DNA of 64,000 nt from Haliotis asinina (taxonomy: Eukaryota > Mollusca > Gastropoda > Lepetellida > Haliotidae): contig NC_090288.1 of the NCBI RefSeq assembly GCF_037392515.1, positions 3,651,501 to 3,715,500 of the forward strand, written 5' to 3'. Both the position numbers and the translations under genes were made by a program. Positions 31,989 through 59,009 of the stretch are shown piece by piece (the stretch's first letter is position 1; each line of letters starts with the position of its first letter). Below the pieces are notes generated by a model that saw only the letters and a program-made list of their open reading frames with translations, made no database searches and was not told the origin of the DNA.

Positions 31989-32095
31989 CTACTTGGACAC
32001 AATGTTCTCGTCGCGAATGTGGTCGTAGATCGAGTTAGTTGTCGAGATGAGGTGAGTGCCATCACTTGATTTCATGTCAGTCTTAGTCGCTGATA
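31989..32095 (-). CDS. gene A exon 9: C-terminal tail with ITIM-like motif
   Basis: Acceptor CTTTTGCAG, 34 codons then TAG. Contains TTNSIYDHIRDE; the SxYxxI core satisfies the ITIM consensus. Gene B has NPIYDHI at the matching place. Confidence 0.85.
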
Positions 32096-33997
32096 CTGCA
32101 AAAGAAACAGGATAACATCGTGTGTAAAATCGTAACATCGTTTCAAAATATATATCCTTCTTCTGGTAAGACAGAAAAGTATTACTACTCCCACTACAGC
32201 TGAAACCGGCAAAACATTAGTGCTGGTATTAGCATGCAGCTGAGATGCGATACATCACGACACTGCCATTTTAGTCACGATGATGTATTACCAAAGTATT
32301 GTCCACTGAAGCTGCGGTACGTAACGAGTCACGATATAAGGGTGGCGATACGACATGTATCACGATATAAGGGTGGCGATACGTAACGAGTCACGATATA
32401 AGGGTGGCGATAGGACACGTGTCACGATATAAGGGTAGCGACAGGATACGTGTCACGATATAAGGGTGGCGACAGGATACGTGTCACGAAATAAGGGTGG
32501 TGATAGGACACGTGTCACGATATATGGGTGGCGATACGACATGTATCACGATATAAGGGTGGCGGTACGTAACGAGTCACGATATAAGGGTGGCGATAGG
32601 ATACGTGTCACGATATAAGGGTGGCGACAGGATACGTGTCACGATATAAGGGTGGCGACAGGATACGTGTCCCGATATAAGGGTGGCGATACGACATGTA
32701 TCACGATGTAAGTGTGGCGATACGACACGTATCACGATATAAGGGTGGCGATAGGACACGTATCACGATATAAGGGTGGCGATACGGCACGTATCACGAT
32801 ATAAGGGTGGCGATAGGACACGTATCACGATATAAGGGTGGCGATGCGACACGTATCACGACACCTAAATCTTTAATTCTAATACTATTTACAAAACACA
32901 ACAGATCCAAACAAAACCATTTTAAAGTATTTCGTCAAATTGGGTAGTAAAGTTTATGCACGGAGTGCTACATGCAAGTGCGACGTCTGACACAGTTCTT
33001 GGCGCAATTAAGACTTTCCGAGAAAATGTTTACTTATGAAGAGAAAATACGTAAGCATATACTTCAATTATCAAACAAAGGTAAATCTTTTTTTCTTGAC
33101 GGATACCGCGATTAAGTAATATTCTAAGTTAAACATCGCTGTATCATGGCTCATTTGAAGTGTATCGTACCAGTATCGGCGACCCATGTATCGATGCATC
33201 GATGTGTATCGATGAATCGTCACACCACTTTGAAAAAACATTCCACCGTATACATCCATTTTCATCAGTCTAAATATACTCTGTCCCTCACACACGCACT
33301 CACATGTATCCACCTTGGAATTTCCACCTAAAAGACACGAGAAAATCCATATTCAGACTCAACGTTTAAATGTTATCCCAACTCAAGGTGCTTCGTCTAA
33401 AACCATCCACTATCGAAATGCCCCACCGGGGGTCAGCCTCGCTGAATGTCACGATGCCCTTTTTTTTTTGATGACTGGATTGTCTGGTCCAGACTAGATT
33501 ATTAATCACAGACCGCATCCATATGGGCAATATAGCTGGAATATTGCTGAGTGCGGTGTAACATGGTCTCGTTCATCACAATTCACAATCACCCTACACC
33601 TCAACTCCAACTCGACACCAATTCAGTTCCTTACCCTCAGCGGTGCCTCCTCCAATCGGCAGAATGTAGCCCTCCTCCTGCATTCGTTTCCTCAATGTAT
33701 GCGGGGAGGGGAGTTCCTGGTAGAGATTGGAATCCATCACCGCGTTGACTCTCCTAGGTCAAAAACACATCAGTTCAGTTCCCTCGCAACCTTACATTCA
33801 TTATATTCCTTACTGTAAAGAGGCGATGCGGGTAGCCTGGAGGTTAAAGCGATCGCCTGTCTGGGTTCGATTCCGCACATGATCTCAGTGTGTGAAGACC
33901 ATTTGTCGTGCCCCCGCTGCGATATTGCTGGCATTTTTCAAAAACGGTCTAAAACCATACTTACTCACTCCAAATTGTAAACATATAAAGTGAGCGA

Positions 33998-34048
<51 letters not shown>

Positions 34049-37000
34049 ATGTGTCTTCAAAATAAATGATTACAGTATCAAGACAATTTCACTGTGTACT
34101 CAACGGTAGCAACGAAGTCAACAAGAGGCAATTCGTTGTAAGCGTTTTTCGTTTTACTAAAATGAAATATGCAGCACGTTTTGGGGGTAAAAACACAGTT
34201 CTCAAAAACCGAAGTTAGTTATAAGCATTGTTCGCTATAAACGCACTTTACACCTTTAGGTAAATATTTTTTGGATAGCCATACTGCGCAAGTCTACATT
34301 ACGTTGTCATCATACACTAATTGATTTGTCGGGTAGTGAATCAGACTTGCGCAGAAACATCCTTGAACATTTCTTGGTGCCATTAAACTAGGACGCCCCG
34401 CGCAGCCAGGTCAGATCAAAAAGACGAAGCAGGAATAATTTTTTTCCTTCCTTCCATATTTCCTGTCGAACAAAACACATCAAACAATATACCGGAGACG
34501 TGTTTATCAGGATGTTGAAACGGTCAGGTCTGATTTTTTTTATTTTTGAAAACTGCGTTACTCACATTTGTGTGGATGCGTACGGCGATTCTAGAGCTGT
34601 CAAGAAAAACAGTAATAATACTTATCATAATAATGAGTAGGATTTATATATCATGAATCGCATGATCAAACGTGAAAAATGAAACGGTGATGAGGCTATT
34701 TATAGGTGAGTGAGTTTAGTCTTACGCCGCACTCAGCAGCTATTACAGCTATATATGGCGGCGGTCTGTAAATAATCGAGTGTGGACCACACAATCTCGT
34801 GACCAACAGCATAATCATCAGTCTCCGCAGCTAGAATACGATGACATGTGTCAAACAAGTCATCGAGTCTGACCTTACTCACTCGTAACGTGGTACGAAG
34901 TATAAATACAACATTAAGTGCCTGATTGCCTGACATTGTCAGTTATCAGAGAAGGGTATGTTGTTTCCACTGCTTATCCTTTTATAACCCTTGCGGACAG
35001 ATGTCCCACCTGCCCCTGGGAAAATTACAAAACTGAATTCATAACGTGTTGAAACAACACACTTGTACGTGATGATAGCTTGATAAAGCTTAAAAGTTCG
35101 ACACATCGGGAGTTCGTTATTCACAGGTGTATTGTAAAGATACAAAAGCGCAGAACACGCCCGAACACGTGATTTTCGTATGTACAGCTTATTGTAGAAA
35201 ACGATGATGTAATCACTTTGGTCATTTCAGATTTATCGAACACTCGGATAAGTCGAACTTTCCCCTTGGTCCGGACGACTTCGACACTGGGGGCTTTATT
35301 GCAGTGACCTAGGTATGGCCAACCTCTTACATACGGAGTTGCTTGACCGATAGTTACCTCTCTTCAACTCCTTGTATTTTCTGCAGAAGATGACGGCAAC
35401 GATGATGAAGAGGAGCAGCATGGCAGCTGCACCAACACCGACACCGGGCCAAAACGTCAAGAGTTCTGTAAACAGAGATAGACGACGTAGATTACATATG
35501 TGTAACGTATTGATGTCTGACCTTTGGGGCTGGGGGTTCTTAATCAGGACATTTCATAAAGGTTTGAAGTGCCACCGTCATTACATGCCAACCACAAATC
35601 ATGTTGTAACTGGCCTTCGTCATGTGTCTTAAATTGCATTGTCATTGACTGATGTAAAAAGACGCATACCAACTCATTCTAACGTCATCGAGCGCAGTTC
35701 ACATCATAACGAGACGCCAAAAGGTTTCTTGTTTTACGCCGCACTCAGCAATATTCCAGCTACATGGCGACTGTGTGTAAATCTGGATCAGTCACTCCCG
35801 AGACTGACATTATGAGAACCGATCTACCCACTTGGGATACGATGACATGCATTCAGCATGTCTTCTCCGATTCGCAGTGCGGGCCAGGTTCCATCTTCAA
35901 CACCATCTAAAATTATAATAGTATCAAAATTAGAGTGAGCTGGTGAGTATGGTTTTACGTGACTGTTAGCAATATTCCAGCAATATCGGTTGTGGACACC
36001 AGAAACTTGCTTTACACATTGTACCTATGTGCCGAATCGAACCAGATCTTTCGGCATGACGAGCGAACACTTTATCCACTAGGCTACCCACATCGCCCCA
36101 TCTAATTTAGAACCCATTAAAGTTGGACGGCAGAATAATAATCTCTTTTAATGAGATCATTGAAAAACTGGAGAGAAAGACATATCTATCGACAATTATT
36201 CAATGTTCCCTCATTAAACATGAATAACGACGGTCACCGACCTTCACCTTGCAGATCGATGAAGACGAAGGTTCTTTCCACGATGTTCTCAGCAGAGACA
36301 CAGTACATGCCAAGATCGTGGGTTGTCTCAACTTTCACCTCCAACACAGCAGTCACACTGTCCCCAGCTCTCTCAGGGGTGTCTGAAAGAATCATGCGAT
36401 ATTAAGTCAACTAAAATACACTCAGTTCTCTCTCATACACATCTTTTCCTGGTAATTTCAGGTTTGTTTACATAGCTGTCTATGAAAATAAATCCAAAAC
36501 GACGATCGCCTGCGCGCTATAGCTAGTCCTCGATATCTCCAAGGGTATACGTTCCGATAAGTCTCCACTATACCCTGGATGCATCTACAGCTCGGCCCGA
36601 TAATTTTATTATCTCCCTTGGCTGGCTTTTTATCCATTCAGGTGTCTACGCTTGGAAGTTGCGCGTACCAATTACAACTCACTTTCGCTGTTTTAATTAT
36701 CCAGTTGCTCAAACTTGGCAACATGCAGACGAATTCTGAATGAGGTAGAAGTTCTTCAGGCTTCCATATATATTTCACAGTTTCGGACCTGACAGTTTGT
36801 CTGTATGATTTCCTAAAAATCTGAGTAGCACTGCGAGCAAATCGTCGCAACTGCGACCACTACATCATTGTTGACGGTGGCAAGCTCGGTTGAAACGGCG
36901 GCTTAGCTGATTAGCAACTGTGAGAATGCGGAGCAACAGCTAAGAGATATAGTGGAGGTATAGTGAAGATTTATCGGAACGTATAGGCCTACCCTCGAAA

Positions 37001-40000
37001 TACAGAGGACATCTATTTCATTAGGTACAGTAACCAATTCCATTTACAATATAAACCTAAGATGTCATATTTGTCACGTAACTTAGCGTACTGTGTCCTC
37101 ACTCCAATCTACACCAGGGCCAGCGCATGTCATGTAACGGATCGTACTGTGTCCTCAGGGCCACAATCTACAGCAGGGCCAGTGCATGTCACGTAACTTA
37201 GCGCACTGTGTTCCCGCTCTAGTCTTCACCAGCATTAGTGATTGTCATATAGCATACATACTGTGCGCTCTCTGACGTCCAAACGAGGGCTGCGTTGTCA
37301 CAGCTGACTATGGAATATTCGTAAAGTAATAGGCGTCTCAGTACAGGCCTTCGTGAAACGAGATTTTGTAAACACAATCCAATATGGCGGAAACCGCACT
37401 TAGGCGTTCGTGTGAGTATAGTTTCGAAAGCATCCCAACCGATTCTAGGTTCATCGGCTGCGTTTCAGATTTATCATTGGAAACTGAAATAACATGAAAA
37501 ACTGATATCAGTGATCGTTAGCATGTTATTTTAAAATCAAATAATCACAGTAATTATCCGATTTCCGCGTTCGAAATCATACCGTACACCAAATAACGTT
37601 GTGAATCATGATCTCACAATTTCTCAGGCCTTATTAGGTAGCGTGTTTTAATCACTTGCTGTACCATAGTCGTTGACGCCATCTTTTGTACTAGTAGTGT
37701 TTACAACCTCATAAAGCATTTACGACAGGTCAATCGGGGTCCTAAATTTGGGGCTGTTTACGACAGAGGTCTAAGTGAAAAGGGGTAAAAAAGTAAGAGG
37801 TGGTCTACGACCTGCTTTACGAGGTGGGACCGGTAAGAGGGCTTTGTGAAACGGGCCCCAGGTCCCGTTTCTGGAAGCGATCTTGGCACCAAAGTGGTCG
37901 TACATTCTAAACTTTAATACAGTGCTGCGGCAATTATCGTTATGATCACATTACCTCTATATTCCATGTTCACGACTACTAACGACTGGTCCCTGGGTCA
38001 AACATTCATGATTACCTTGATGCGACGTATTGACAGCGCCATTCACGGGGGTCAGAGAACCCTCTTCAATCTTCCACCAGCTGACATCAGGCCGTGGGTC
38101 ACCTGACAACGTCACCTCCAATCTAGCCGTTTGACCTGTCATTGTCTTCAATGTTGGAGTGAAGGCTGCATCAAGTTTTCTCTTCGGACCGGCTATAAAA
38201 GAGGTGTGAGAGTGACTTTAGTTTTACGCTGCTTTTAGCAATATTGCAGCAATATCACGGTAGGCACACCAGAAATTCCACATATTATGCTCATGTGGGG
38301 AAGCGAACCCGGGTCTTCTGTGTGACGAGCGAACGCCTTAACCACTAGGCTACCCCACCCCTTTAAGAGACAAAATATCAGCTCTTTCTCAAAGAACCCA
38401 TGAGTCTCAGCTATTGAATCAAACCACATTCTCTCTCTTTCCTTGGCTTAGTAGTTAAAGCGTTTGCTCGTCACGCAGAAGGCCGGACTCACTCACTCAC
38501 ACTCAATCAATCAGTATATCTATTTCTGTATGGGTGAAATGAGTCTCAAGTGCTCCGGACGTGACGGTTAATGTGGACCCAATCTCTCCTGGGTAAGTAA
38601 ACTGCGCTGGGATTTGGGGTTAGAGCATTATAACCAACTGAAAGTCGATTACAAAGCAAACAACTGGTCAGAATAGATTTGGTGGAAAAGACGGTAGTCC
38701 CGCACACACTGTTGATGAAAACTTATGGCTATTATGTGTATTGAAACTTCGGGTAAATGAACCCGTAAACCGGGTAATAACGCGCTGAATCCTTCATTCA
38801 TTGGTAAATAACGTCTTCTAAATAACTACACGGTCTTAAAGTATTAAAGGAAGTATTTAAAAAGCAAGCATTAATGACTGTTGTATAGATATCTAAAGAA
38901 AAATGATTGGAAAAAGTACTAATCTGCCCAAAATAAATTGGTTAAAAATATCCACCAAAAGGGAGTGTAGCATACACGCCATAAAACATACAGCGCCAGA
39001 TTGAGTGAGTGAATTCTGTATTAGTAATGATCCGGCAATATCACAGCAAGGGACACCAGAAATGGGCTTTACATATTACAGCCCTGTTGGGGGATCGAAC
39101 CGATGTCTTCGGCGTGACGAGAGAACGCTTTATCATTAGGCTACCCCACTACCCACGTCAGCTTCAGAAAGTCGCTGAAACATCGCAAGCATGCCGTAAA
39201 CGAAAAGATAAATAGTTTGGATTGTTGTTTTTCATTTGATTATAAAAACCTCCATTAACAATGGAAATTAGTAAACAATCAGTAACGATTGAAGTGGAAT
39301 GCTTAACTATCAAAAGGAACAACTTGTGTAAAGTTGCAAAGTTATAAACACCCGTGCCATATGGAGGACAGAGAGTTATGACAAAAAGGGTTATTCCTTG
39401 ATAAATATAGTTTTGGATCAGGGAAAATACATTTTATAAAAATGTACCCGGCGCTTATTAGAGGCCCCGCGTTTATTAGAGATCCGGCACTTATTAGAGT
39501 AAATACGCCCAATATCCCTCTCAGTTCCATTAGGCTACACTGCCTTTCCAAAACATGGATTTACAGAATGTAAAGTCACAAGAATAAAACTTGGACATTT
39601 CTCAGTTCAATATTGTGTATGGCCGCCCCGAGCATTCACCACTGCCAAACATCGTCTCCTCATCGACTGCCCGATGCTTGTGAACACGTGGTTGGGGATT
39701 CTGCGCCATTGCTCTTGCAAGGCAGTGCCAAGTTCCAGCAAATTCTGCGGTTGGTTCCTAAGAAATTTGCTGCGGTTGGTTCCTAAGACCACGAAGCCTT
39801 CTCCCAAGTGCATCCCAAACGTGCTCTATTGGATTAAGGTCATGGGAACTCGATGGCCAGTCCATGACGATGATTCCAGCGTTTTGAAGGAAATTTCGTG
39901 TCAGCATCGGGGTATGCGTCCGAGCATTATCATGCTGGAACTGTAGACCCGGGCCATGAGCCGGCATGAAAGGAACGAGTTCAGGGGTGAGCACCTGGTC

Positions 40001-43000: not shown

Positions 43001-46000
43001 TCACTCAGGTAAGACCCTTTACTTTCTTCTACCTTGGCAAATCGTTACCATTACTGTTCAATGTTTTCTGCAATACATTTTTGCTATCATGACCACATGT
43101 TAAGATCCTTGGCAGGGTCGTTATGTTTAAGTGGAACGTGGATCGTTAATATATTAGACTGTATTACTCTCTATTGCTCTGTTCACGAGCGGTACCCTAG
43201 GTACCCTAGTGGTTAGAGCGTTTGCTCGTCACACTGAAGGCCCGGGTTCGATTCCCCACGTGGGCACAATGTGTTAAGCCCATTTCTGGTGTCCCAAGCT
43301 ATTGCTGAAATATTGTTAAAATCGGTGTAAAACCCAACTCGCTCCCTGTATTGCTGTTCATGTTTTGTCTATTTGATAATAGTGGTTTCGTGGCTGGCGT
43401 GGAGCGTGTCGTGTATTGTTTCAATTATTGTATTATGAGTAAATACTTTCCAGTGTTGAATGATCCTGGTATAATGTATAGAGTGTGTTCGACACTGTGT
43501 ATTTCATTATGTACTGCGTAATGTTGTTTTGGATATGCTAGTATTATAAGATGTATGAACGAAATTGGGTTGATGTTATGTGTTAGAAATGTATCTTGAT
43601 TTATGTAGTATGTGTCGTGTACATCGACGTATGATGACTATGTACTTTGTATATCAGCATATAATGATAATGTAATTTGGCAACTTATTGTCAATATGTT
43701 CTAATAATTATTTGTACCTAATCATGTAAAAATCATCCTGTGACTGTGGCATAATAAACTCCTTGTTTATTCACTCTGGTTCTCGTGTTGTGTGTGGGTT
43801 GGTATAGTTACATCTCCTAGCTGCCAAGCGAGCTGATTCCCCAAACTCGCGAGTTAACAGTTTCGCTATTGTTTCCGCGACTTCTCTTTCTCCGCATCAA
43901 TTTCCTATTGTTCAGACATTTTGTCAGTGTATCTGTTAGACCACATTTGAGATCCGTACAATCATTTTCAGCCTTTCGAAGTTCAGATTTTCCATACATT
44001 ACATTATTGATTAATAAACCGAAAATAAAACACACAACAAAAGGCATATTGTATATGAAAGATTCATTTATCCTTTTCTTATAACAAGTAATTAAGGGTT
44101 TCAAACTGTCATATCGTAAGCGAGTGCGTATGGTTTTACGCCGCTTTAGCCATTATTCCAGCAATATCATGGCGGGGCACAGACCTAGAGGAAATGGGCT
44201 TCAAACATTGAATCCGTATGGGGAATCGAACCCGGGTCTTCGGTGTGACGAGCGGACTCTTTAACCATTAGGCTACCACCTCCCGCCGTATCGTACGATG
44301 TAGACATATTGCAAACACGTGTACTTACTCAGAACATGAAGGTTCACGGAGATGTTGCTGGCTTTGTTAGACGAGGGGTTGACGGCGGTGCAGGTGTACT
44401 TGCCACTGTCGTCGCCTAACACTCCGTTCAGAGCTAGGACCTGACCCTGACTCCCTTTGGTCTGACGGGTCAGGTCCTGTCCACCCTTGGTCCAGGTGTA
44501 CCGACAGTCTGGGAGACAGTTGGCCGAGCAGGTCAGGTTGACGCTCTCTTCCTCCTTGACCTGGAGTTCTGTCTTGTCCAGTTGTATCTGAGTTGGACCC
44601 TGGGGATCTGAAAGATAGAAACTCGTAATGATTTCACGAAAACCTATTCTTCATAATTCCACTTTTTGATCATGAGAGACAGTTTTATTTTATTGATACG
44701 TATCGATACCTTAGATAGTTATGCAAGATGGGTCTGGAGGTCTGGGATGAAGAAATTTGCTAAATGTTGAAGGGCATTTAGAAGTGGAATGTACAAGAAA
44801 ACAAGATTATGGATGGGGGATCATGCCGACATCCACAAATCTTGCTTTCTCTTAAGAAATTTGCTGTGTAGAGTTGTGTCCCTTCGTTTCAGGATCCGCT
44901 GATACTAAATCTTCACTTGTGCGCAAAACAACCGGTGTCAGTTACGGCATGGAATTGTAGAAGGGACATTGTTGCGATGTCGGCATCACAAAAAGAAGCG
45001 ATAAAAGGCAAAATGAACCAAAATGCGACCATCGACAGTGTCCCCATCCAGCATTCCATACTTTACTCTACCGTAAAGCAGTAACGTTCTGAGGTAACTA
45101 GAAATCCTGTTCAACACGGGTGCAACCATCTCACTCGATATACAATAGGCAATTTAGAAGAGAAAAACGCCGCGATGCTGGAAGTGCGGTAGCCTGATCG
45201 TAACGCGTTTAGTACACCGGGGTTCTATTTCTCAAATGGGTCCACCGCCGAGATATTGTTGGAAAAGCTTCTATAGATCGGTCTTACTCTCCACGTTTTC
45301 AGTGATGTCAGTGAGCGAGATTATTATTCTGCCATTCAGCTTAAATGAGTTCTAAGTTTGATGGGGCGATCGGGTAGCCTCGTTGTTAAAGTGTTCGCTC
45401 TGTCAGCATTTCTACTACCGCAACCACACCCCCCTCTGTCAGCATTTCTACTACCGCAAACACATCCCTCCCTGTCAGCATTTCTACTACCGCAAACACA
45501 TCCCCCTCTGTCACTCAGTGATAGAGATCGTATTGAAATGAGTATTAGGTTGACGCTGTATTCATTGACCCGTTATAACAATATACTCTTGGCATTGCTT
45601 CCTTCTGAAAAATGGGCTTTTGGGAAGCCTAGTGGTTAAAGCGTTCGCTCGTCATGCCGAAGACCCGGGTTCGATTCTCCACATGGGCACAATGTATGAA
45701 GTCCTTTTATGCTGTTCCCGCCGTGAACTGTTGAAATATTGCTAAAAGCGGCGTAAAACTTTACTCACTCAAACATTCAGGAAAACGTAATCTGGACGAT
45801 CCACTCCAGATGTAATACATTTTTCATTCCAGAAAACTTTACGGATGGATGAAATATATTTTACAAGGCATCCGTCAAAGCACATTCAGTGTAGTTTAAT
45901 TTATATTTACCTGTCATGTTAACACGGACGATGTTGCTAAAACCGTCAAATTCGCATTTCCAGTCTCCAGCGACGTCGTTGTGTAAGGAGGAGGCGTTGA

Positions 46001-47664
46001 GGAAGTAGACGTAGTTGCCGTCACCCTGTTGACCACATCTGCAAGTGTACTGTGTGTGGAACCACGTGGCTGACATGTATTGGGTACAATCGTCTACTTT
46101 CACTGTGCACATGGATCGATCGTTCCTTTGAAAGATGAGAGATTGAATCTGTATGTTGGCTGTCGTGACGTCACACTTGAATTGGAGCGACATCCTCGGA
46201 AAGGCTTCTAAAGGTTCCCGGGTCAAGGTCAAGGACGTGCCTGTAATGACGTTCATGTAATATGGATTATGAAAAAAATATGCAGAAGGGCGGCCTAGTT
46301 TTGAAAGTGTTCGCTCGTCACGCCGAAGACCCGGGTTCGATTCCCCACATGGATACAGTATGTGAACCCATTTCTGATGCACCCCGACGTAATATTGCGT
46401 GGATGTTGTTAAAAACGGCATAAACTGTACTCACACTATGATGCAGAAATGGCATTTCACTGGTTGCAGTGAGTATGCACTGACCCTTCACTGGTTAACG
46501 GGCAGTGTGCTAACGTTTTAATCATAAAGGGCGTATCACTTGGAAAGAGCACTATGAAACAAACGCATTGTATGAACTGCAGTGAGTAAGTATACTTTTA
46601 GCAATTCTCCAGCAATGTGAAGTCAGTTGAATGCCGGAAATGACTTTCAGACATTGTTCGCATATGACACTTGAACCCGAGTCTTGGGGCTCGAACCAAG
46701 GTCTTTAAGCGAACGCTGTAACCATCGGACTGATGGGTTTGTGGAACAGACACAGCGTTTTAATGGTAAGATTGTAATGGACGTGTGAAGGAATAAATAT
46801 GCTCGAATACATTTATTCATGGTACTTAATATATTGAAGTTAAACACGTTTTACGTTACTTTACACTACAAAAACTCACAACGTAAACAGACATAATTTA
46901 ATATCTACACAGTAATCAACGCATTCATACACAAATTACCCTTGTGACGCAACGAAAGTTTTAAATATTTTTGTGTATTAGTTTCTACATCCAAAGCAGA
47001 TACCAACACATAAACAAGTGAAATGGTCTCACCAAATTACGAAATCTTGATCTTTCATCCGGAGTGAGTGAATGAGTAAGTGAACATGGTTTTACGCCGC
47101 TTCTAGCAACATTCCAGCAATTTCAGGGCGGGGGATGTAAAAATGGGTTTCACACATCGTACATACCCATGTGTGAACCGAACCCGGATCTTCATTTGGG
47201 TTACGCCAACAAATCATATGAGCACCCCTTCCATCTCCCAAGTCCAGGACCCACCCCAACTTATCGTTCCCTGAATCCAAACGAGTCGTCTCCAAAATAC
47301 CAGGTTTAAATCGTAAGAAGCAGGAGTCGTCCAAGAGGCGACTTTCAGGGATTCCTTTCACAAAGCGCTAAGGTGATCGTAAGTCACTAAGGTAACCTTA
47401 GTGCAATGTTAAAGAATGGCAGTTAAGGTTAACCTCAGTAAAGGTTGCTTCGTGAAAGGAACCCCAGATCTGTACTGAACCCCGTGTATCACGAGTACTG
47501 CAGGTAGGTTTGTTTATGACTCTCAGTAGGCAAATTACAAAATCGCCTTCTGTCTTTTTATGTGACACCGAACGCTACTATGTCTAACAGTACTCACTGG
47601 TAGTGGAGGATATCTGGACGTAGGACATGGCAAACATCAAGGTCATCTTGTGCAGCGCCCCCAT
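31989..47664 (-). CDS. Ig-superfamily receptor, gene A (9 coding exons, complete)
   Basis: Predicted type I membrane receptor, not recognised as a named family. Exons in transcript order: 47664-47598, 46240-45911, 44607-44329, 38192-38016, 36382-36248, 35465-35358, 34596-34566, 33753-33635, 32095-31989. All introns are GT-AG and phases agree, giving 450 residues. Order: signal peptide (1-22); V-like Ig (24-132); C2/I-set Ig (134-225) with DDSGKYTC; an Ig domain split by an intron (227-329); transmembrane helix (about 334-357) followed by RKYK; tail with Tyr 371, 387, 405 and 439. SIYDHI at 437-442 fits the ITIM pattern, so inhibitory SH2-type signalling is inferred. Gene B next door repeats the last six exons, which strongly supports the model. 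Expression is unknown. Confidence 0.82.
32320..32866. repeat. 31-bp minisatellite, about 17 copies
   Basis: Unit ACGATATAAGGGTGGCGATA followed by GGACACGTATC. Copies differ mainly at the TACGACACG/AGGACACG positions. It begins about 225 bases upstream of gene A exon 9, within the last intron. Confidence 0.95.
33415..33565 (+). mobile_element. SINE-B with internal deletion
   Basis: Joins a shortened head to GATTGTCTGGTCCAGACTAG and GCTGAGTGCGGTGTAAC; a run of ten T lies between. Gene A intron. Confidence 0.72.
33635..33753 (-). CDS. gene A exon 8: cytoplasmic tail with LYQELPSP
   Basis: 119 bases, entry phase 2, exit phase 1, donor GTAAGG. Contains MDSNLYQELPSP and EEGYILPIGGG, aligned with MDPNHYQELPSP and DGGYLLPEGDR in gene B. 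Confidence 0.83.
33821..33970 (+). mobile_element. SINE-A
   Basis: Head with a 10-base deletion before GGGTTCGATTCC; normal body and tail. Gene A intron. Confidence 0.8.
33996..34050. repeat. microsatellite (AAAT)n
   Basis: About 14 uninterrupted AAAT units at the end of a SINE-A tail region. Confidence 0.95.
34566..34596 (-). CDS. gene A exon 7: 31-nt tail microexon
   Basis: Acceptor CTTGACAG, donor GTGAGT; enters phase 1 and leaves phase 2. Encodes (A)LESPYASTQ. Gene B has an independent 31-nt exon with DLEFPYASTV, so the microexon is conserved between paralogues. It is needed to bring exon 8 into frame. Confidence 0.82.
34708..34870 (-). mobile_element. SINE-B
   Basis: Reverse copy from GTCTTACGCCGCACTCAGCA to TCATCGAGTCTGACC. 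Gene A intron. Confidence 0.8.
35358..35465 (-). CDS. gene A exon 6: transmembrane segment
   Basis: 108 bases, phase 1 at both ends. Encodes a glycine/alanine-rich hydrophobic helix followed by a basic stop-transfer CRKYKELKR. The paralogous exon in gene B has exactly the same length. Confidence 0.88.
35727..35890 (-). mobile_element. SINE-B, diverged head
   Basis: GTTTTACGCCGCACTCAGCA to GGGATACGATGACATGCATT. Gene A intron. Confidence 0.75.
35938..36099 (-). mobile_element. SINE-A
   Basis: Reverse copy, GGTTTTACGTGACTGTTAGC to AGGCTACCCACATCGCCCC. Gene A intron. Confidence 0.82.
36248..36382 (-). CDS. gene A exon 5: second half of split Ig domain
   Basis: 135 bases, phase 1 at both ends, acceptor TTTCAG. 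LEVKVETTHDLGMYCVSAEN supplies the E-F strands with the F-strand Cys312, which lacks its usual partner. Its paralogue is 57835-57966. Confidence 0.88.
36525..37020. mobile_element. MITE with long terminal inverted repeats
   Basis: Left end GTCCTCGATATCTCCAAGGG and onward (CGTTCCGATAAGTCTCCACT) is mirrored at the right end (GTATAGTGAAGATTTATCGG ... CAGAGGAC). Arms of roughly 50 bases at about 80 percent identity enclose about 380 bases without a coding signal. It lies in a gene A intron. Superfamily not determined. Confidence 0.65.
37072..37258. repeat. 56-60 bp tandem repeat, three copies
   Basis: GTCACGTAACTTAGCGTACT and ...CACCAGGGCCAGCGCAT recur at 37073, 37129 and 37188, the third more diverged. 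Confidence 0.8.
38016..38192 (-). CDS. gene A exon 4: first half of split Ig domain
   Basis: 177 bases, phase 1 at both ends. ARLEVTLSGDPRPDVSWWK is a typical I-set B-to-C strand segment, except that Val252 stands where the B-strand Cys is expected. Its paralogue is 58830-59009. Confidence 0.88.
38205..38361 (-). mobile_element. SINE-A
   Basis: Full-length reverse copy about 15 bases upstream of the exon 4 acceptor in gene A. Confidence 0.85.
38446..38515 (+). mobile_element. SINE-A head fragment
   Basis: CTTAGTAGTTAAAGCGTTTG head joined directly to CACTCACTCAC; the middle is deleted. Confidence 0.6.
39002..39158 (-). mobile_element. SINE-A
   Basis: Reverse copy with an altered tail end; GGATCGAACC and CTACCCCACT recognisable. 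Confidence 0.8.
39448..39510. repeat. about 20-bp tandem repeat (GCTTATTAGAG), three copies
   Basis: GGCGCTTATTAGAGGCCCC, GCGTTTATTAGAGATCC and GCACTTATTAGAG in tandem. Confidence 0.75.
39590..40625 (-). mobile_element. degraded Tc1-like (DD34E) transposon
   Basis: Minus-strand remains of a transposase spread over several frames: HTH region near 40519-40223 (GRSLVKSRPEDHQIVL), a middle part, then QHDNARTHTP and HDLNPIEHVWDALGRRL near 39758-39960, and RCLAVVNARGGHTQY at 39613. The spacing between HDN and PIE is 34 residues. At least two frameshifts and a 24-bp internal duplication near 39750-39790 disable it. Ends are approximate; no clear inverted repeats seen. It lies in the gene A intron between exons 3 and 4. 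Confidence 0.82.
39600..40519 (-). pseudogene. Tc1-like transposase pseudogene
   Basis: Coding remains of the element above, spanning the DNA-binding domain to the C-terminal GGHTQY motif. The catalytic Asp and Glu of the second half are preserved, but the reading frame is broken more than once. Confidence 0.8.
41786..42115 (-). mobile_element. SINE-B interrupted by a hairpin
   Basis: Tail and body up to CATGAACATCAG (41890) resume near ATGAGCATCGATCC (42000). Between them lies an inverted repeat of about 80 bases (GATTAGGACAAAC.. / ..GTTGGTCCTTATCTAATC). Confidence 0.7.
42930..43795. mobile_element. possible LTR-derived fragment
   Basis: TATAAAA near 42947 is followed by a 39-base segment (GACTGTGGCGTAATAAACTC and on) that recurs in direct orientation at about 43740. 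The TATA-to-AATAAA spacing resembles an LTR. A SINE-A has inserted between the repeats. No internal genes; a fossil fragment at most. Confidence 0.3.
43196..43346 (+). mobile_element. SINE-A
   Basis: Near-consensus A- and B-boxes. Lies between two 39-base direct repeats at 42.97 and 43.74 kb. Confidence 0.85.
44118..44287 (-). mobile_element. SINE-A
   Basis: Full-length reverse copy; ends about 40 bases from the gene A exon 3 donor. Confidence 0.85.
44329..44607 (-). CDS. gene A exon 3: C2/I-set Ig domain
   Basis: 279 bases, phase 1 at both ends, acceptor TTTCAG and donor GTAAGT. Canonical Ig features: NLTCSA for strand B, YTWTKGG for strand C, DDSGKYTC for strand F. An extra NCLPDC pair could form a second disulfide. 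NLT and NIS are potential glycosylation sites. Confidence 0.9.
45184..45275 (+). mobile_element. SINE-A, degraded
   Basis: GCGGTAGCCTGATCGTAACGC head and GCCGAGATATTGTTGGAAA body fragments. Confidence 0.5.
45361..45400 (+). mobile_element. SINE-A head stub
   Basis: GGGGCGATCGGGTAGCCTCG to GTTCGCTC, then broken off by a 36-bp tandem repeat. Confidence 0.6.
45401..45508. repeat. 36-bp tandem repeat, three copies
   Basis: TGTCAGCATTTCTACTACCG followed by CAAMCACAYCCC, exact 36-bp steps at 45401, 45437 and 45473. Confidence 0.92.
45625..45777 (+). mobile_element. SINE-A
   Basis: Near-consensus copy, GCCTAGTGGTTAAAGCGTTC to GCGGCGTAAAACTTTACTCA. Confidence 0.85.
45911..46240 (-). CDS. gene A exon 2: V-like Ig domain
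   Basis: 330 bases, phase 1 at both ends, acceptor TTACAG and donor GTAAAT. One exon encodes one divergent Ig fold: B-strand Cys in SLQFKCDV and F-strand Cys in AGDWKCEF, with several extra Cys (SMC, DDC, YTCRC). NAS and NMT are potential N-glycosylation sites. Confidence 0.8.
46288..46437 (+). mobile_element. SINE-A
   Basis: GGGCGGCCTAGTTTTGAAAG head, good B-box, shortened tail. Just upstream of gene A exon 2. Confidence 0.8.
46582..46738 (-). mobile_element. SINE-A, diverged
   Basis: Reverse copy with low identity and a duplicated CTCGAACC-like segment. Confidence 0.6.
47062..47194 (-). mobile_element. SINE-A, head truncated
   Basis: GAGTGAGTGAATGAGTAAGT through ACCGAACCCGGATCTTCA, then lost. 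Confidence 0.75.
47355..47465. mobile_element. foldback element, type 1
   Basis: TTTCACAAAGCGCTAAGGTGA ends in GGTTGCTTCGTGAAAGGAACCC; the interior TAAGTCACTAAGGTAACCTT is itself partly palindromic. Just upstream of gene A exon 1 in sequence order. Confidence 0.55.
47598..47664 (-). CDS. gene A exon 1: signal peptide
   Basis: Starts at an ATG (MGALHKMTLMFAMSYVQ) with a short hydrophobic core and ends phase 1 at donor GTGAGT. An open frame continues upstream of this ATG, so an earlier start cannot be excluded, but this one gives the best signal-peptide shape. Confidence 0.6.
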
Positions 47665-50624: not shown

Positions 50625-50745
50625 GTTTCATAAAACATAAGGTGACCTTAAGTCACAAAGGTAACTTAATGGAAAGGAAATGTTAAAGAATGGGAGTTAA
50701 GGTTACCCTCAGTAAAAGTTGCATTGTGAAGGAACCCCTGGAGTA
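50625..50745. mobile_element. foldback element, type 1
   Basis: TCGTTTCATAAAACATAAGG ... GTTGCATTGTGAAGGAACCCC, same layout as the copies at 24.9 and 47.4 kb. Confidence 0.5.
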
Positions 50746-51895: not shown

Positions 51896-52037
51896 TGAGC
51901 TAGTTTAGTTTTATGCCGCACAACCACTGACATACAATTTCACGCATAAAAGTCTCACCACTGGCTGAGACATTGAGGATGTAACGGCGATTTTACAGAC
52001 CACTCTGCTTTTAGAAGCATAGTTTATGACTATGCAA

Positions 52038-52200
52038 AGTGAGTGAGTGAATTTTGTTTCACACCGACCTGAGCAATATTCAAGCTATGTGGTGGTGGTC
52101 TGTAAATAATCGAGTCTGGACCAGACAATCCAACGATCAACAGCATGAGCACCAAACTATTGGCAACAGACAACAATCAGCAAGTCTGGCCATCCCGTTA
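52038..52200 (-). mobile_element. SINE-B
   Basis: GTGAGTGAGTGAATTTTGTT tail, then AATAATCGAGTCTGGACCAG and CATGAGCACC; the head is rearranged. A shorter tail fragment lies at 51897-51950. Confidence 0.7.
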
Positions 52201-52257
52201 GTGGAAAAGATGGCAATATGTAGGAGGATAAATGTTTCACTGAGTCTGATGGCATGG

Positions 52258-52365
52258 GCCCAGATTTTCGAATCTCTCTTAGCGCTAAGATAGTCGTAAT
52301 TTAATGTTAATGTATGGCACTTACGCTTCTCTTAACGCTAAGAGAGCTTCGAAAATCTAGGCAAT
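52258..52365. mobile_element. foldback element, type 2
   Basis: GCCCAGATTTTCGAATCTCTC at the left and GAGAGCTTCGAAAATCTAGG at the right form an inverted repeat with inner TTAGCGCTAAGAT / AACGCTAAGAGAG. It overlaps the 3' side of gene B, just after its stop codon in transcript order. Confidence 0.55.
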
Positions 52366-52439
52366 GTTTAGTATTTAAGTTAGGGTTCGTGTTGATGTCA
52401 GGGTTATGGATGAAGGCAGAATAACGTCGAGTGGCGTCC

Positions 52440-52561
52440 TTACTGTCTTTGGATGGTGCCATCGTCGAAAAGGCTGATGTGGTCGTAGATTGGGTTGGTG
52501 GCTGCCTTGGTGGCGATGGCTTTGTCCTCAACCGATTTTTCGTCAGTCTGAATACAGTACA
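52440..52561 (-). CDS. gene B: terminal tail exon
   Basis: Acceptor TTACTGCAG, 39 codons then TAA. QTDEKSVEDK and TNPIYDHISLFDDG align with the gene A terminal exon. A second AG just downstream would put a stop in frame, which decides the acceptor. Confidence 0.83.
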
Positions 52562-55500
52562 CTGCAGTAACATAAATTGATTGCTATAGCCTATTATACT
52601 GCTACATGTACTATGCCATGTACTAACGCTTATCCAAGAGTAAAAGACACCTATCCTATTGTTTCATTTCAATTTTTCAATTCTTTGTTCCTAAAGGTGC
52701 GATGCTTCTTCCTCTGGAACATAGTGGAAATAATGTTTCATCGAATTGGGTAGCGGCCCTGAAAACAACCACTTAACCAAAAGAATGATTCCTTACCCCC
52801 AGGACGATCTCCCTCTGGCAGAAGGTACCCTCCATCTAGCAGGCTTTTCTTCAAATTCTTCGGAGAGGGGAGTTCCTGGTAGTGGTTTGGATCCATGCCG
52901 CTTGGGGTACTACGAAGACAAGAAACAACACATCAGGTTGTGAGGGAGCAAGTTATGTTTCTCGTTAATCTTTAAACTGATGATGGACGATTTTGACGAT
53001 TTTTACAGTAACCGAGACAAAATCTTTAGGGAGGTCCATTATATTATATGACATTACAGTTGGAATTTGAAGGAGTCTTGTGTTGGTTGTGAATAGTTTA
53101 CTTTCGTTTTAACTGAGTTAGAGCTTATGGTTCGATGTCAGCTGCAATATAACACTCTTTTAGCCTTGACTGTGCCCCTAACTCGTAAAATACGAGTTTA
53201 GGTTTGAATTATCTCCCCTACACTACAATGAACGACCATGCCAATTAATGAGCTTTGAACTGCTTTCAGGAATATTCCAACAAAATGATGACGGTGGACA
53301 CCATGAATGGGCTTCACACATAGTACCCATGTAAAAACTCGAACCCGGGTCTTCCGCGTGGCGAGCGAACGCTTAAACCACTGAGCTACCCGAATTTTGT
53401 ATATAAATTAACATCAAGTAGGGTTTCCACCAAATATTTTCTCCTTGATTGTCTCTGAATCCGGAAACGGGAAGAAGTTATCCTCAATCTGTTTCATCTC
53501 GACATACTTCCGAGCTTATACCAGCATACTATACTGCCCTCATCCGATGTAAACTGCTACATGTGACAAGTTTCACAAACCTGACAGTCGAAGCATACGG
53601 AAATTCCAAATCTGTAAAGACAAATGATAGCTAATATTGCCAGTGGTATAATTATATTTCAAATCTTAAAAATAACATTTAGAAAATCAAATGAAACATT
53701 TAGAAAATGAGTGAAGCATAAATTAATTCTCTGGTTTGTTTGTTGGTTAGATCTTTGCCTGATGGATAAAATTTGACCTCTTCTATTTTTTCATCCATTC
53801 CCAGATGAATATATCATTAATTAACTCATGTGTCCATATGTTATCCATGTCCATAAGTGACCACTGCCTGATAAAGGACATGTCATTTAAACATTCATGC
53901 ACTGTCCAACATTGGATAGGTCATTCATTAATTCAGGTGTCTATTGCTTGAAGAAGGATATGTCATTCATTAATTCGTTTGTCCATTTCCTGACATAGGA
54001 TACGTCTTTCATTTATTCATGCGCCCATTGCCTGACAAAGGCTATGATATATATTGTGAATATAAGTGTAGGACGCAGGCATGCGTGCTATGAGCTAGTC
54101 TTTCAGTCGAGCTCTTGACATCTTAAAAGCGGTAGAGCGCCATTTCAACAACAAAAATGGTTACCTCTTTTTATCTTGCGGTATTGTCCCCAGAATGCAA
54201 CAGCAGCGATGGTTCCAATAGCGAGCATGACGCCTACACCGACACAGGCTCCAAATCCGAACATGCGCATTCCTGGACATACAGATATGTAGTGGTATGA
54301 GTAACTGAACTTACTAAGGTTTCCGAATCCGAAAGTGCTGTGACGTACTTGCATAAAGATATGTTATTACGTCTCTTTATCAGGTTATGCGATGACGTAA
54401 CCAATAGGAATCTATTATGACGTGCCACCTTTGGAGTATGTTATGACGTACCTCCATCCTCCATTTACAGCGTATCTCCATCAGGAAGTGTTAGGAAGAT
54501 CTTCAAACGGGACATGCTATGACGTTCCTCTACAGGGGTATGCTATGACGTACCTCCATTGGGATATGCCATGACGTACCTCCGAAGGGGTAAGTTATGA
54601 CGTTTTCCCATCGGGACACGTTATAACTTACCTCAGTCAGGCCATATTATGGCGTACTTCCATCAGGGATATGCTATCAAACGGAATAGGGCTATGTTAT
54701 AATGTACCTCCATCGGGATATGTTATGACGCACCACATAGGGCTATGTTATGTGAAGACGTACCTCAAACGGGATGTGGTATGACATACACCACTGGGAT
54801 ATCACATGACGTATTTTCATCAGAATATATATTTCCACGTACCTCCTTCAGGCCGTGCTGTGGTGTACCTCTATCAGTATATGTTATGACGGACATCCAT
54901 TGGGATATGTTAAGACGTACAACGTAGTTATATGCGAGGACGTACTCAAACGGGATGTGCTGTGACATATCCCACTGGGATATCGTTATGTGTTATGCGC
55001 ACTACCACAGATATGTGTTAGGACGTATGTCTCCATTTGGACATGTTATAACGCGCCTCACACTAGATATGCTATGACATATCTCCATCAAGATATCCCT
55101 TATCCTCATCGGGATGTTTGCATACCACCATAAAGATATGTTAGGGCGTGCCTTCAGTCAGCCAGTCTGTTTCTCGTGTTTTTAAATAGACGACATAAAC
55201 ATGACCGCTTACTTTTATGAGATTTCATTTTTTCGAAAATTGCGTTTCTGTTGTTGTTCAGTATATTACCCGCATAAAATTATTAATGAGGGGTCTTAGC
55301 TTCATTACTCACCATTTTCAGCTGTGCCGCAAAGTGCACCAACAGTCTGATCACCTACAATATGAATCGTCATATCAGTACTTCAGTACAGCTATATCAA
55401 TATCTCAACTTCACACCAATACAACATGATACAGTCATGTCCATATTTCAACAAGTCACATCGATACCTCAGCTCCGATGAGTGGATTGGGGCATAGACA

Positions 55501-58500
55501 CATCGACAGATGAGGAGAGAAGGACAAGGGAGGTTGGAGTGGTGGATTGAGGCAGACACACATTGACAGATGAAGAGAGAAGTGCAAGTCAGGTAAATTG
55601 TGGTGGATGGAGGCAGAGACACATTGACGGGTGGGTAGGCGAGGACAAGGGAGGTAAGTAGTGGTGTATTGGGGCAGACAGACATTGACAGATGGAAAGA
55701 CAAGTGCAGGGGAGGTAAGTAGTGATGGACTGAGGCAGATATACATTGACAGATGGAAAGACAAAGGCAAGGGAGGTAAGGAGTGGTGGATTGAGGCAAA
55801 CACACATTAACAGATGGAAAGACAAGCTAGGGCAAAGGAGGTAAGTGGTGGTGGACTGAGGCAGACACACATTGACAGATGAAGAGAGAAGTGCAAGTCA
55901 GGTAAATTGTGGTGGATGGAGGCAGAGACACATTGACGGGTGGGTAGGCGAGGACAAGGGAGGTAAGTAGTGGTGTATTGGGGCAGACAGACATTGACAG
56001 ATGGAAAGACAAGTGCAGGGGAGGTAAGTAGTGATGGACTGAGGCAGATATACATTGACAGATGGAAAGACAAAGGCAAGGGAGGTAAGGAGTGGTGGAT
56101 TGAGGCAAACACACATTAACAGATGGAAAGACAAGCTAGGGCAAAGGAGGTAAGTGGTGGTGGACTGGGGCAGACACACATTGACAGATGAAGAGAGAAG
56201 GACAAGGGAGGTAAGTAGTGGTGGATTGAGGCAGACACACATTGACAGATGAGGAGAGAAAGGCAAGGGTCGTAAGGAGTGGCGGACTGAGGCAGACACA
56301 CATTGACATACGGGGAGAGAAGTGCCAGGGAGGTAAAGAGTGGCGGACTGAGGCAGACACACATTGACAAATGGGGAGAGAAGTGCAAGGGAGGTAAGTA
56401 GAGGTGGACTGAGGCAGACACACATTGACAGAGGGAAAGACAAGTGCAAGTCAGGTAAGTAGAGGTGGATGGAGGCTGAGAGACATTGACAGATGAAGAG
56501 AGAATTGCAAGGGAGGTAAAGGGTGGTGGATTGAGGCAGGGACAGGGACACACTGACAGAAAGACAGGGAGGTAAGTAGAGGTGGATTCAGGCAGACATA
56601 CATTGACAGATGGAAAGACAAGGGCAAAGGAGGTAAGTAGAGGTGGATTGAGGCAGAGACACATTGACAGATGAAGAGAGAAGTGTAAGTCAGGTAAGTA
56701 GTGGTGGATGGAGGCTGAGACACATTGACAGATATAAAGACAAGGGCAAGGGAGAAAAGTAGTGGTGGATTTAGGCAAACACACATTAACAGATGGAAAG
56801 ACAAGCTAGCGCAAAGGAGGTAAGTAGTGGTGGATGGAGGGAGACACACATTGACAGATGAAGAGAGAAGGGCAAGGGAGGTAAGTAAAGGTGGATTGAG
56901 ACAGACACATTGGCAAATGGAAAGACACGCTAGGGCAAAGGAGGTAAGTAGAAGTGGATTGAGGCAGACATATACTGACAGATGGAAAGACAAGGATAAG
57001 GGAGGTAAGTAGAGGTGACTGAGGCAGACGCACATTGATAGATGGAAAGACAAGTGCAAGTCAGGTAAGTAGAGGTGGATGGAGGCTGAGAAACATTGAC
57101 AGATGAAGAGAGAAGTGCACGGGAGGTTGGAGTGGTGGACTGAGGCAGACACGCATTGACAAATGGAAAGACAAGAGCAAGGGAGGTAAGTAGAGGTGGA
57201 TTGAGGCAGAGACACATTGACAAATGAAGAGAGAATTGCAAGGGAAGTAAGGAGTGATGGGCTGAGACAGACACACACTGACAGATGAAGAGAGAAGTGC
57301 AAAGGAGGTAAAGATTGGCGGACTGAGGCAGACACACATTGACAAATGGGGAGAGAAGTACAAGGGAGGTAAGGAGTGGTGGAATGAGGCAGACACACAT
57401 TGATAGATGAGGAGGCGAGGGCAAGGGAGGTAAGTAGAGGTGGATTGAGGCAGACACACATTGACAGATGAGGAGAGAAGAGCAAGGGGTGTAAGGAGTG
57501 GTGGACTCAGGCAGACATACATTGACAGATGTGGGGAGAAGGGCAAAAGAGGTAAGGAGTGGTGGACTGAGGCAGAGACACTTTGACAGATGGGGAGGTA
57601 AGGGCAAGGGAAATACATAGTACTGCACGGAGACACTTGAGAAATGGAGAGAAAGTAGGAGAGCTGGAAAAGGGACAATGAGAACTGAGCAGAGACTGCT
57701 AGATTGAGAGAGAATAAATACAGAAGGAAGGTGAAACATTCAGACAAACTAGACATGGAGGGAGACATACACAAACATGCACACATACACGAACCTACAT
57801 TGACCAGGTGCCTGGAAGAGCCACTGACCTTCACCCTGCAGATCATAGTAGACGTAGGTCCTATCCACGACATTCACGGCTAAGACACAGTACATGCCAA
57901 GGTCCTTGTCCGTCTCCACCTTCACGTCAAACACAGCAGTAACACTGCCTACTCTTCCCGGGGCACCTGAAACAATCATGCGAAACTTGGTCCACAAAAA
58001 CGAGACTTACAGACTGATCCTAACGCGGATACGGACTCTGTGACATCAGTAACATGGTATTTAGAAAATATGCTACAAATTAATACTGATGAAAATAGAA
58101 TTTTATCTTCATCAAGTTGTTATAAGTTATGTATTTAAAACTTAGATGCTGCCAAACCCGCGAACATGGGTCTCTATCGAAGAGATCCTTGGATACTCTT
58201 TGTACCTTGCCTCAACAGAATATTTTCACTTACTGGTGGTCACGTATGGCAAGTCGTTTTCACATTTGTCAAGAAACTAAACATATCTTCAATTGGTTTA
58301 AATATATCTGTATTCTATCTAAACAAATTTGTATTAATAATGTTTTGCTTAATTTCTGATATCCACATTAAAATTACTGATATCTTAACAGGACATATTG
58401 GTGATACTTCTAATCACTCACTTCACTGTACATATCGTCCCCTACTTTCCTCTTTACAATGGGGTGACAGGGTAGCCTTGTAGTTACAGTGCTCGCTTGT

Positions 58501-59009
58501 CACGCCAAAGGCCAGGGTTCGATTCCCCACATAGGTATAATGTAAAGGCCATTTCTGGTGTTCTCCGCCGTGATATTGCTGGAATATTGGAATAATCACT
58601 CAACAAGTGTACAAGAGGCAGGGTGTCCCACCAACCTTGGTCAGTTTTGTCCTCTTTTTCCTCTGACACAGCTCCCCACCCAGGCCCTCCCATCTTTAAC
58701 GGCACCAAGGCTGACTTGCACGAAGCGATCGTAGCGCTACAATAACTCCCATTTTTCAGCATAGGCTTAAAACAGTCCTAGCGCTAAGATTGCTTTGTGC
58801 AAGTGGGCCCAGGGCGAAGTTCTACCTACCTTGAAACGCTGTATCCACGACGACATTGTCAACAGGGGTCAGAGCTCCCTCTTCAATCTTCCACAAGCTG
58901 ACCTCTGGTAGTGGGTCGCCGGAGAAGGTGACCTCCAATCTGGCTGCTTCACCTCTCGAGGTTCTCAAGGTCGGGGTGAAGGGGACTCCCACTATCCTTT
59001 TCGGTCCAG
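52440..59009 (-). CDS. Ig-superfamily receptor, gene B (3' six exons; 5' part outside window)
   Basis: Tandem paralogue of gene A in the same orientation. Exons in transcript order: 59009-58830, 57966-57835, 54272-54165, 53611-53581, 52909-52797, 52561-52440. Phases are consistent throughout and all introns are GT-AG. It encodes the split Ig domain, a transmembrane segment and a tail with PYAST, HYQEL, GYLLP and PIYDHI tyrosine motifs, ending QRQ-stop. No signal peptide, V-like or C2 exon was found between 59010 and 64000, so these probably lie beyond the right edge; loss is the alternative. The final motif has Pro where the strict ITIM wants S/I/V/L, so signalling may differ from gene A. Confidence 0.82.
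52797..52909 (-). CDS. gene B: tail exon with HYQELPSP
   Basis: 113 bases, entry phase 2, exit phase 1. TPSGMDPNHYQELPSPKNLK then GGYLLPEGDRPG. Confidence 0.82.
53269..53393 (-). mobile_element. SINE-A
   Basis: Reverse copy with tail truncated; CTCGAACCCGGGTCTTCC and GAGCTACCCG seen. Gene B intron. Confidence 0.8.
53581..53611 (-). CDS. gene B: 31-nt tail microexon
   Basis: Acceptor CTTTACAG, donor GTTTGT (weak). Encodes (D)LEFPYASTV. Length, phases and PYAST core are the same as in gene A. Confidence 0.78.
53812..54050. repeat. degenerate 40-50 bp tandem repeat
   Basis: GGATATGTCATTCATTAATTC and TTGCCTGACAAAGG-like segments recur about five times. Gene B intron between microexon and TM exon. 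Confidence 0.65.
54165..54272 (-). CDS. gene B: transmembrane exon
   Basis: 108 bases, phase 1 at both ends, same length as gene A exon 6. Gly/Ala-rich hydrophobic helix followed by QYRKIKR. Confidence 0.85.
54370..55140. repeat. 26-bp degenerate minisatellite
   Basis: Unit like TGCTATGACGTACCTCCATT GGGATA with many variants. Starts about 100 bases upstream of the gene B TM exon in genome order. Confidence 0.85.
55480..57615. repeat. 61-bp minisatellite, about 35 copies
   Basis: Unit contains GAGGCAGACACACATTGACA, GATGGAAAGACAAG and GGGAGGTAAGTAG. Includes an exact higher-order duplication with a 309-bp step (55562 and 55871). It fills the gene B intron between TM exon and split-Ig exon 2, ending about 220 bases short of the latter. 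Long minus-strand open frames here arise because the unit lacks stops in that orientation. Confidence 0.95.
57835..57966 (-). CDS. gene B: second half of split Ig domain
   Basis: 132 bases, phase 1 at both ends. FDVKVETDKDLGMYCVLAVN matches gene A exon 5, with the F-strand Cys kept. Confidence 0.87.
58461..58600 (+). mobile_element. SINE-A
   Basis: GGGGTGACAGGGTAGCCTTG head, GGTTCGATTCC B-box, tail truncated. Gene B intron. Confidence 0.82.
58700..58812. mobile_element. foldback element, type 3
   Basis: CTTGCACGAAGCGATCGTAGC is mirrored by GCTAAGATTGCTTTGTGCAAG; ends about 110 bases apart. Abuts the donor side of the gene B split-Ig exon. Confidence 0.5.
58830..59009 (-). CDS. gene B: first half of split Ig domain
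   Basis: 180 bases, phase 1 at both ends, acceptor TTTGTAG and donor GTAGGT. AARLEVTFSGDPLPEVSLWK matches gene A exon 4. Both the B-strand Cys and one of the two Trp are replaced (Val, Leu). Confidence 0.87.

Follow-up and report, generated by a model that had tools for sequence, protein, structure and literature searches.

Ig-superfamily receptors with tyrosine motifs in their tails

The oyster Crassostrea gigas carries a receptor, CgIgIT2, which is described as having five Ig domains and an ITAM, and which the title of the cited work calls an inhibitory receptor (PMC11999971). As far as the descriptions of CgIgIT and CgIgIT2 in that source go, both resemble two of the genes reported here, A and B, in being molluscan and in combining several extracellular Ig domains with one transmembrane (TM) segment and a tyrosine motif in the tail (PMC11999971). 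By the same descriptive comparison, CgIgIT2 differs in its five Ig domains, as opposed to three Ig-like domains in A and B and two in their paralog C (PMC11999971). Another oyster protein, CgSiglec-1, is reported to have two I-set domains (PMC5877582).

Outside the molluscs, the tails of the FcoR proteins encoded at the fuhc locus of Botryllus are described as containing an ITIM, a hemITAM, or a core motif, Y-x-x-I/L/V, with no known function (PMC12065747). Like A, B, and C, the FcoRs are clustered Ig receptors whose tail motifs vary between members, but by that account they contain a sushi domain as well and are paired with fester genes (PMC12065747). No sushi-domain match was reported in protein A or in the part of protein B from the third Ig-like domain to the tail, and, as far as tested, the FcoRs and the abalone proteins are not homologous. 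The Alr allorecognition genes of Hydractinia are outlined in the same source as tandem Ig-like receptors with ITIM/ITAM-type motifs; at the level of description they share with A, B, and C the arrangement of tandem invertebrate Ig-like receptors, the Alr genes being cnidarian (PMC12065747).

Among vertebrate proteins, the Siglecs, LILRB, and CEACAM1 resemble gene A in layout, i.e., an Ig ectodomain, a single TM segment, and an ITIM, and CEACAM chains are found among its PDB matches, mostly through the second Ig domain. Siglecs are marked by an N-terminal V-set domain whose arginine binds sialic acid. The abalone locus differs from vertebrate inhibitory receptors in that only one strict ITIM is present among its three paralogs. 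A search over open-licence papers found no publication on this locus, which is not proof of its absence from print.

The A/B gene pair

The window analyzed here is the 64,000-nucleotide stretch C9:3651501-3715500, and the genome searches were run on the 1.14-Gb, 159-contig assembly to which it belongs. Window-wide tblastn with protein A and the exon models place genes A and B in tandem, both on the minus strand (Table 1). Gene A (9 exons, 452 aa) lies wholly inside the window and runs from a weak signal-like start through three Ig-like domains (Ig1 to Ig3) and a TM segment to the tail; gene B (9 exons, 451 aa) extends 4.0 kb beyond the right window edge. AG/GT flanks every internal exon boundary in both genes, and the phases are equal exon by exon, those of the six exons from exon 4 onward being 1-1, 1-1, 1-1, 1-2, 2-1, and 1-stop. 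The two proteins are 54% identical over their shared part.

The initial annotation had described a same-strand tandem pair with six consecutive common exons in the same order and with matching phases, and the splice sites and phases bear this out. Five of its pairs of exon lengths were exact; the remaining one, given as 135/132, was off by 6 on each side, so that the A/B lengths are 177/180, 141/138, 108/108, 31/31, 119/113, and 107/122. That reading covered the 3′ part of the genes only, to which exons 1–3 of gene A, with the start codon and two more Ig-like domains, are now added. The pair is thus real and was correctly spotted, is larger than described, and belongs to a known kind of receptor; taken as a whole, the earlier observation is confirmed in part and its interpretation supported in part.

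Table 1. Exons of genes A and B (positions within the window unless prefixed with C9, which denotes contig positions)
Exon	Content	Position	Strand	Support or remark
A exon 1	start codon and a stretch weakly resembling a signal peptide (MGALHKMTLMFAMSYVQISSTT)	47598..47664	-	open frame with a phase 1 donor, GTGAGT
A exon 2	N-terminal Ig-like domain with six cysteines (Ig1)	45911..46240	-	homologous exons in B, C, and five remoter loci
A exon 3	canonical Ig domain (Ig2); its last 217 nt are the same in exon 3 of gene B	44329..44607	-	I-set match
A exon 4	first half of membrane-proximal Ig3, without B-strand Cys	38016..38192	-	splice sites, phase, paralog 58830-59009 (E 3e-17)
A exon 5	remaining half of Ig3, with DLGMYC	36242..36382	-	splice sites, phase, paralog 57829-57966 (E 1e-12)
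A exon 6	TM segment and basic juxtamembrane KYKELKR	35358..35465	-	paralogs in B (E 2.6e-5) and C (E 3.9e-5)
A exon 7	31-nt micro-exon, SPYASTQ	34566..34596	-	top candidate among 3 intronic AG-31nt-GT stretches; 31 nt in B and C too
A exon 8	tail, YQELPSP and GYILP	33635..33753	-	no homologs other than in B and C
A exon 9	end of the tail, with SIYDHI (strict ITIM) and the stop codon	31989..32095	-	
B exon 1		C9:3719450-3719507	-	right of window
B exon 2		C9:3717886-3718212	-	right of window
B exon 3		C9:3715639-3715917	-	right of window
B exon 4	first half of Ig3	58830..59009	-	tblastn, splice sites
B exon 5	second half of Ig3	57829..57966	-	tblastn, splice sites
B exon 6	TM segment, QYRKIKR	54165..54272	-	resembles A exon 6
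B exon 7	31-nt micro-exon, FPYASTV	53581..53611	-	
B exon 8	tail, YQELPSP and GYLLP	52797..52909	-	tblastn, genome search with tail exon
B exon 9	PIYDHI and stop	52440..52561	-	

The gene structures of A, B, and C are predictions resting on homology and splice signals. In the window-wide tblastn with protein A, exons 4, 5, and 8 of gene B were matched with E 3e-17, 1e-12, and 1e-5, and exons 6, 7, and 9 had no score of their own; exon 6 was matched in a small region-against-region ORF comparison (E 2.6e-5), and exons 7 and 9 were assigned by motif, order, phase, and splice sites. The least certain part of the models is the first exons, and exon 1 of gene A is the weakest exon: the signal-exon scan found none for this gene at the stricter hydrophobicity threshold, the exon given being the best of 5 candidates at the relaxed one. 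The signal-like first exon of gene B (MAPMVVALFFICVQLDTIT) passed the stricter threshold.

Several repeats lie in and around the two genes. Intron 5 of gene B contains a 61-bp minisatellite of 34.8 copies (alternatively, a 309-bp unit) at window positions 55482-57611, which shows a strong G skew and, on the minus strand, stop-free frames as long as 351 aa. Two tandem arrays, each of a different 31-bp unit, are found at 32324-32861, in the last intron of gene A, and at 20186-20685, and two arrays of a related 29-bp unit at 60763-60867 and 61690-61793. The window also holds a 336-aa frame of a Tc1/mariner-like transposase (16418-17425, minus strand; DDE_3 E 9.8e-16, with a weaker Tc3-type HTH); a tRNA search of the window gave none.

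Paralog C and the wider family

The initial annotation had suggested that the family might extend past the right edge of the window, and both exons 1–3 of gene B and a further paralog are indeed located there. This paralog, gene C, is on the plus strand at C9:3748771-3757842, to the right of gene B, and is inverted relative to A and B. It has exons matching exons 2, 3, 6, 7, 8, and 9, including the 31-nt micro-exon, with phases as in A and B, and encodes 308 aa without its first exon. The signal-exon scan did not find that first exon, giving mainly copies of a tandem repeat; equally spaced, identical scan candidates belong to a tandem repeat with a period of 1374 bp upstream of gene C, at about C9 3734700-3741700. 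No counterpart of exons 4 and 5, which encode Ig3, was found in the region of gene C. Since these two exons together begin and end in phase 1, the reading frame is kept when both are absent.

Searched against the whole genome, the tail exon of gene B gave three places, namely A, B, and C, the weaker two with E 0.002 and 0.039, and exon 3 DNA of gene A found A, B, and C only, so that by tail and Ig2 DNA the local family appears small, with three predicted genes. With Ig3, A and B alone were below E 0.01 (4 exon matches among 21 at E up to 10). The models of A, B, and C support the earlier proposal of a local family of single-pass Ig-superfamily receptor genes in a mollusc.

A wider family, as judged from sequence similarity, has the same six-cysteine first domain on other contigs. 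The genome search with Ig1 returned A, B, and C, followed by four places on contig C1, with E from 6.5e-9 to 3.4e-5, by a single one on C4 at E 0.0014, and by four weak places, 12 matches in all at E up to 10. Starting from a C1 relative, the search gave 21 matches with E no higher than 1; 13 of them, including A, B, and C, were below 1e-4. Besides the same first domain and more Ig exons, the relatives on C1 and C4 have hydrophobic segments and an exon resembling Ig3, and in two C1 relatives that were compared a conserved open stretch reads LTYTEL in one, which fits the strict ITIM, and QTYTEL in the other; this stretch is probably an exon. On contig C26, Ig1-type matches occur in pairs of equal score, possibly unplaced copies or haplotigs, and entries on C1 and C26 may in part duplicate each other within the assembly.

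Elsewhere in the genome, dense groups of Ig_3 matches were noted at C10:37.35-37.69 Mb, C2:26.38-26.41 Mb, C1:12.7-13.3 Mb, and C7:57.6-57.7 Mb, in a survey that scored 150 of 1371 candidates and whose counts are hence to be read as "at least". Lysin is a protein of vetigastropods, i.e., abalone and their relatives; six matches to the egg-lysin family PF01303 above the cut-off lie on contig C14, as compared to none in 14 control genomes. The host is hence probably an abalone or a near vetigastropod, in line with the mollusc of the initial annotation.

Ectodomain and transmembrane segment

An Ig-type ectodomain is present in protein A by profile, with Pfam I-set above the cut-off (E 2.5e-20), the best stretch being residues 145-221 in Ig2, an ordinary Ig domain; in gene B, Ig2 (C9:3715688-3715882) is above the cut-off for Ig_3. 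The Ig3-to-tail part of B stayed under the cut-off (E 0.029). The six exons first noticed do hold Ig sequence, but just one degenerate Ig domain, Ig3, which exons 4 and 5 encode together, so that a count of two Ig domains in these exons was rejected. The B-strand cysteine of Ig3 is absent in 5/5 aligned relatives and the F-strand cysteine in 3/5, and a profile of five Ig3 sequences matched titin-type domains (E 4.3e-15).

The first domain would be classed as Ig-like through its relatives only. Ig1 of protein A itself had no Ig-family match in Pfam, and one of the three copies on C9 matches Ig_3 (E 0.28); among eight aligned copies, six match Ig_3 at E up to 1, the best at 2e-5. A profile of three Ig1 sequences had no PDB hits up to E 10, and one of eight sequences gave weak antibody-type matches (best E 0.0051); a single-sequence AlphaFold model of the A domain was unusable (mean pLDDT 39.6). 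Six cysteines are invariant in all eight copies, which suggests extra disulfides. A regular-expression scan for more Ig exons in A, B, C, and their flanks returned exon 3 from both A and B, plus four further ORFs that were judged non-Ig by eye; as the scan missed Ig1, Ig3, and exon 3 of gene C, its silence means little. In all three genes exon 6 encodes a single hydrophobic TM segment, as read by eye.

Tail motifs and their conservation

The strict ITIM consensus is (I/V/L/S)xYxx(I/V/L). Among the three paralogs it is found in A alone (SIYDHI), the equivalent residues being PIYDHI in B and TVYDLI in C, the last of which is the only one with the ITSM pattern. The designation "ITIM-like" for the whole tail is not supported as it stands, and the ITIM label is borne out in part only: a strict ITIM is present in one of three paralogs and also arises with a chance of 0.24 (24%) in shuffled A tails. 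As to the YxxI/L motifs initially listed, the pattern is matched by YQEL and YDHI/YDLI in all three paralogs but not by GY(I/L)LP: the YILP/YLLP in it has the form YxxP, and C has GYSLT in its place, so that GYILP was rejected as YxxI/L; PYAST fits neither YxxI/L nor YxxPhi. The juxtamembrane YKEL (A), YRKI (B), and YQKM (C) fit YxxPhi, and the three YxxPhi motifs per tail are mildly unusual relative to shuffled tails (P 0.072, 0.074, and 0.041). An ITAM, defined by two YxxL/I spaced by 6-12 residues, was rejected on spacing, YQEL and YD(H/L)I starting 43-53 residues apart and YKEL and YQEL 26-27 apart in the three tails.

Common to the tails are YKR, PYAST, N-x-YQELPSP, GY, and TN-x-(I/V)-YD-x-I. 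Their alignment has 82 ungapped columns, of which 28 are invariant, five of these being tyrosines. Within positions -2 to +3 of a tyrosine, 12 of the 24 other columns are invariant, as compared to 11 of 53 elsewhere (Fisher p 0.015, with aligned residues taken as independent and three sequences being few). It is this higher conservation of residues near the tyrosines that argues for a function of the tail.

An identical tract in divergent genes

Exon 3 of genes A and B is identical at 258 of 279 nt, including all of the last 217 nt, as compared to 57-75% DNA identity in the seven other exons compared (exons 2 and 4-9). Over the 72 codons of Ig2, dN is 0 and dS is 0.019, whereas dS is 0.45-1.4 in the other segments; dN/dS lies below 1 in each segment compared (tail, 0.425 vs 1.364), these being uncorrected NG86 estimates with dS near saturation. 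In 10,000 shuffles of all compared sites without exon 7, the longest identical run was 54 nt with exon 3 included. Another identical run, of 58 nt, is found in exon 2 and is longer than in any of 10,000 shuffles made without exon 3 (maximum 38). Between A and C and between B and C, identical runs reach at most 33 nt.

Gene conversion between A and B is the simplest account of the identical stretch and our best reading of the alignment: one gene seems to have recently received part of a domain, Ig2, from the other. A similar pattern could arise by misassembly or by a partial duplication of very recent date, and the comparison does rest on one assembly, with the identity ending 3 nt into the downstream intron on one side and inside exon 3 on the other. 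These explanations are nevertheless quite unlikely given that blastn of A against B aligns exons and dispersed repeats only, both the flanking introns and the other exons (exon identities 0.57-0.75) having diverged, and given the separate run in exon 2.

Proposed function and competing explanations

The reading that we favor, with a probability of roughly 0.55, is that A, B, and C are paralogous type I Ig-superfamily membrane receptors of an abalone-like snail, SH2-coupled and regulatory. It builds on the observed gene structures, domain order, conservation, and conversion tract; the binding of a ligand, phosphorylation, SH2 recruitment, the sign of the signal, and the cell type are what we infer, and a role in immunity or recognition would be a further step of the same kind. 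The full models with equal phases in A and B, together with the six exons found for C, speak for receptors, as does the same layout in distant relatives, and the oyster CgIgIT receptors and Botryllus FcoRs supply precedents in a mollusc and a tunicate. The uncharged TM segment suggests that no adaptor chain is needed, and a single pass, an uncharged TM segment, and conserved tail tyrosines in combination make signaling through SH2 proteins most likely. Weak points of this reading are the rarity of the strict ITIM, the only mildly unusual YxxPhi counts, the lack of ITAM spacing, the lack of an Ig match for Ig1 of A, the weak signal peptide of A, and the missing first exon of C.

In such a receptor, the six-cysteine N-terminal Ig-like domain would probably bind the ligand, with Ig2, plus the disulfide-poor Ig3 in A and B, forming a stalk. 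Clustering by ligand would lead a Src-type kinase to phosphorylate the conserved tail tyrosines, and, once phosphorylated, YQEL and YD(H/L)I may attract SH2 proteins, for example an SHP2-type phosphatase, which would fit best in A with its ITIM and C with its ITSM-like motif. The recruited SH2 proteins would tune the response of the cell.

The main rival is that these are adhesion or trafficking receptors, in which YxxPhi motifs would be endocytic or sorting signals for clathrin adaptors and the Ig domains would serve neural or epithelial contact. YxxPhi is the consensus of sorting signals, for which a position adjacent to the membrane is fitting, and each tail has three such motifs with a bulky hydrophobic residue, one of them (YKEL, YRKI, YQKM) right after the membrane. 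Conservation, on the other hand, reaches upstream of the tyrosines and includes PSP and PYAST, exceeding what YxxPhi needs. The nearest solved sequences in the PDB, i.e., contactins, DCC, Dscam, CEACAMs, and neuroplastin, are adhesion proteins, with titin in addition, yet these matches reflect generic I-set similarity with little bearing on role. This explanation is possible, though less likely than the favored one. Recognition proteins like the FREPs (fibrinogen-related proteins), secreted or lectin-like and with a C-terminal fibrinogen domain, share the molluscan origin, an N-terminal Ig-like domain, and gene duplication; they are a very improbable match, and a FREP-like protein was rejected, since the models proceed from Ig domains to a TM segment and tail in 3/3 paralogs, and no fibrinogen-domain match was found in Pfam for protein A or the Ig3-to-tail part of B.

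A more far-reaching reading, which we consider speculative and unlikely, is that C9 could be a recognition locus with paired-type receptors carrying ITIM (A), ITSM-like (C), and degenerate (B) tails, in which A and B exchange ectodomain sequence by conversion and one ligand contact is thereby joined to differing tail outputs. It would then be a lophotrochozoan counterpart of the NK-type paired receptors and the tunicate FcoRs, based on the six-cysteine Ig domain of the wider family.

Implications

What deserves a second look at this locus is the conversion tract, together with the six-cysteine first domain. The A/B tract offers a concrete and inexpensive way of testing whether the ectodomain evolves separately from the tail, as it does in paired receptors. 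If the proteins are SH2-coupled, they would provide a compact abalone family in which lophotrochozoan phosphotyrosine signaling, inhibitory or activating, could be tested outside the vertebrates and tunicates.
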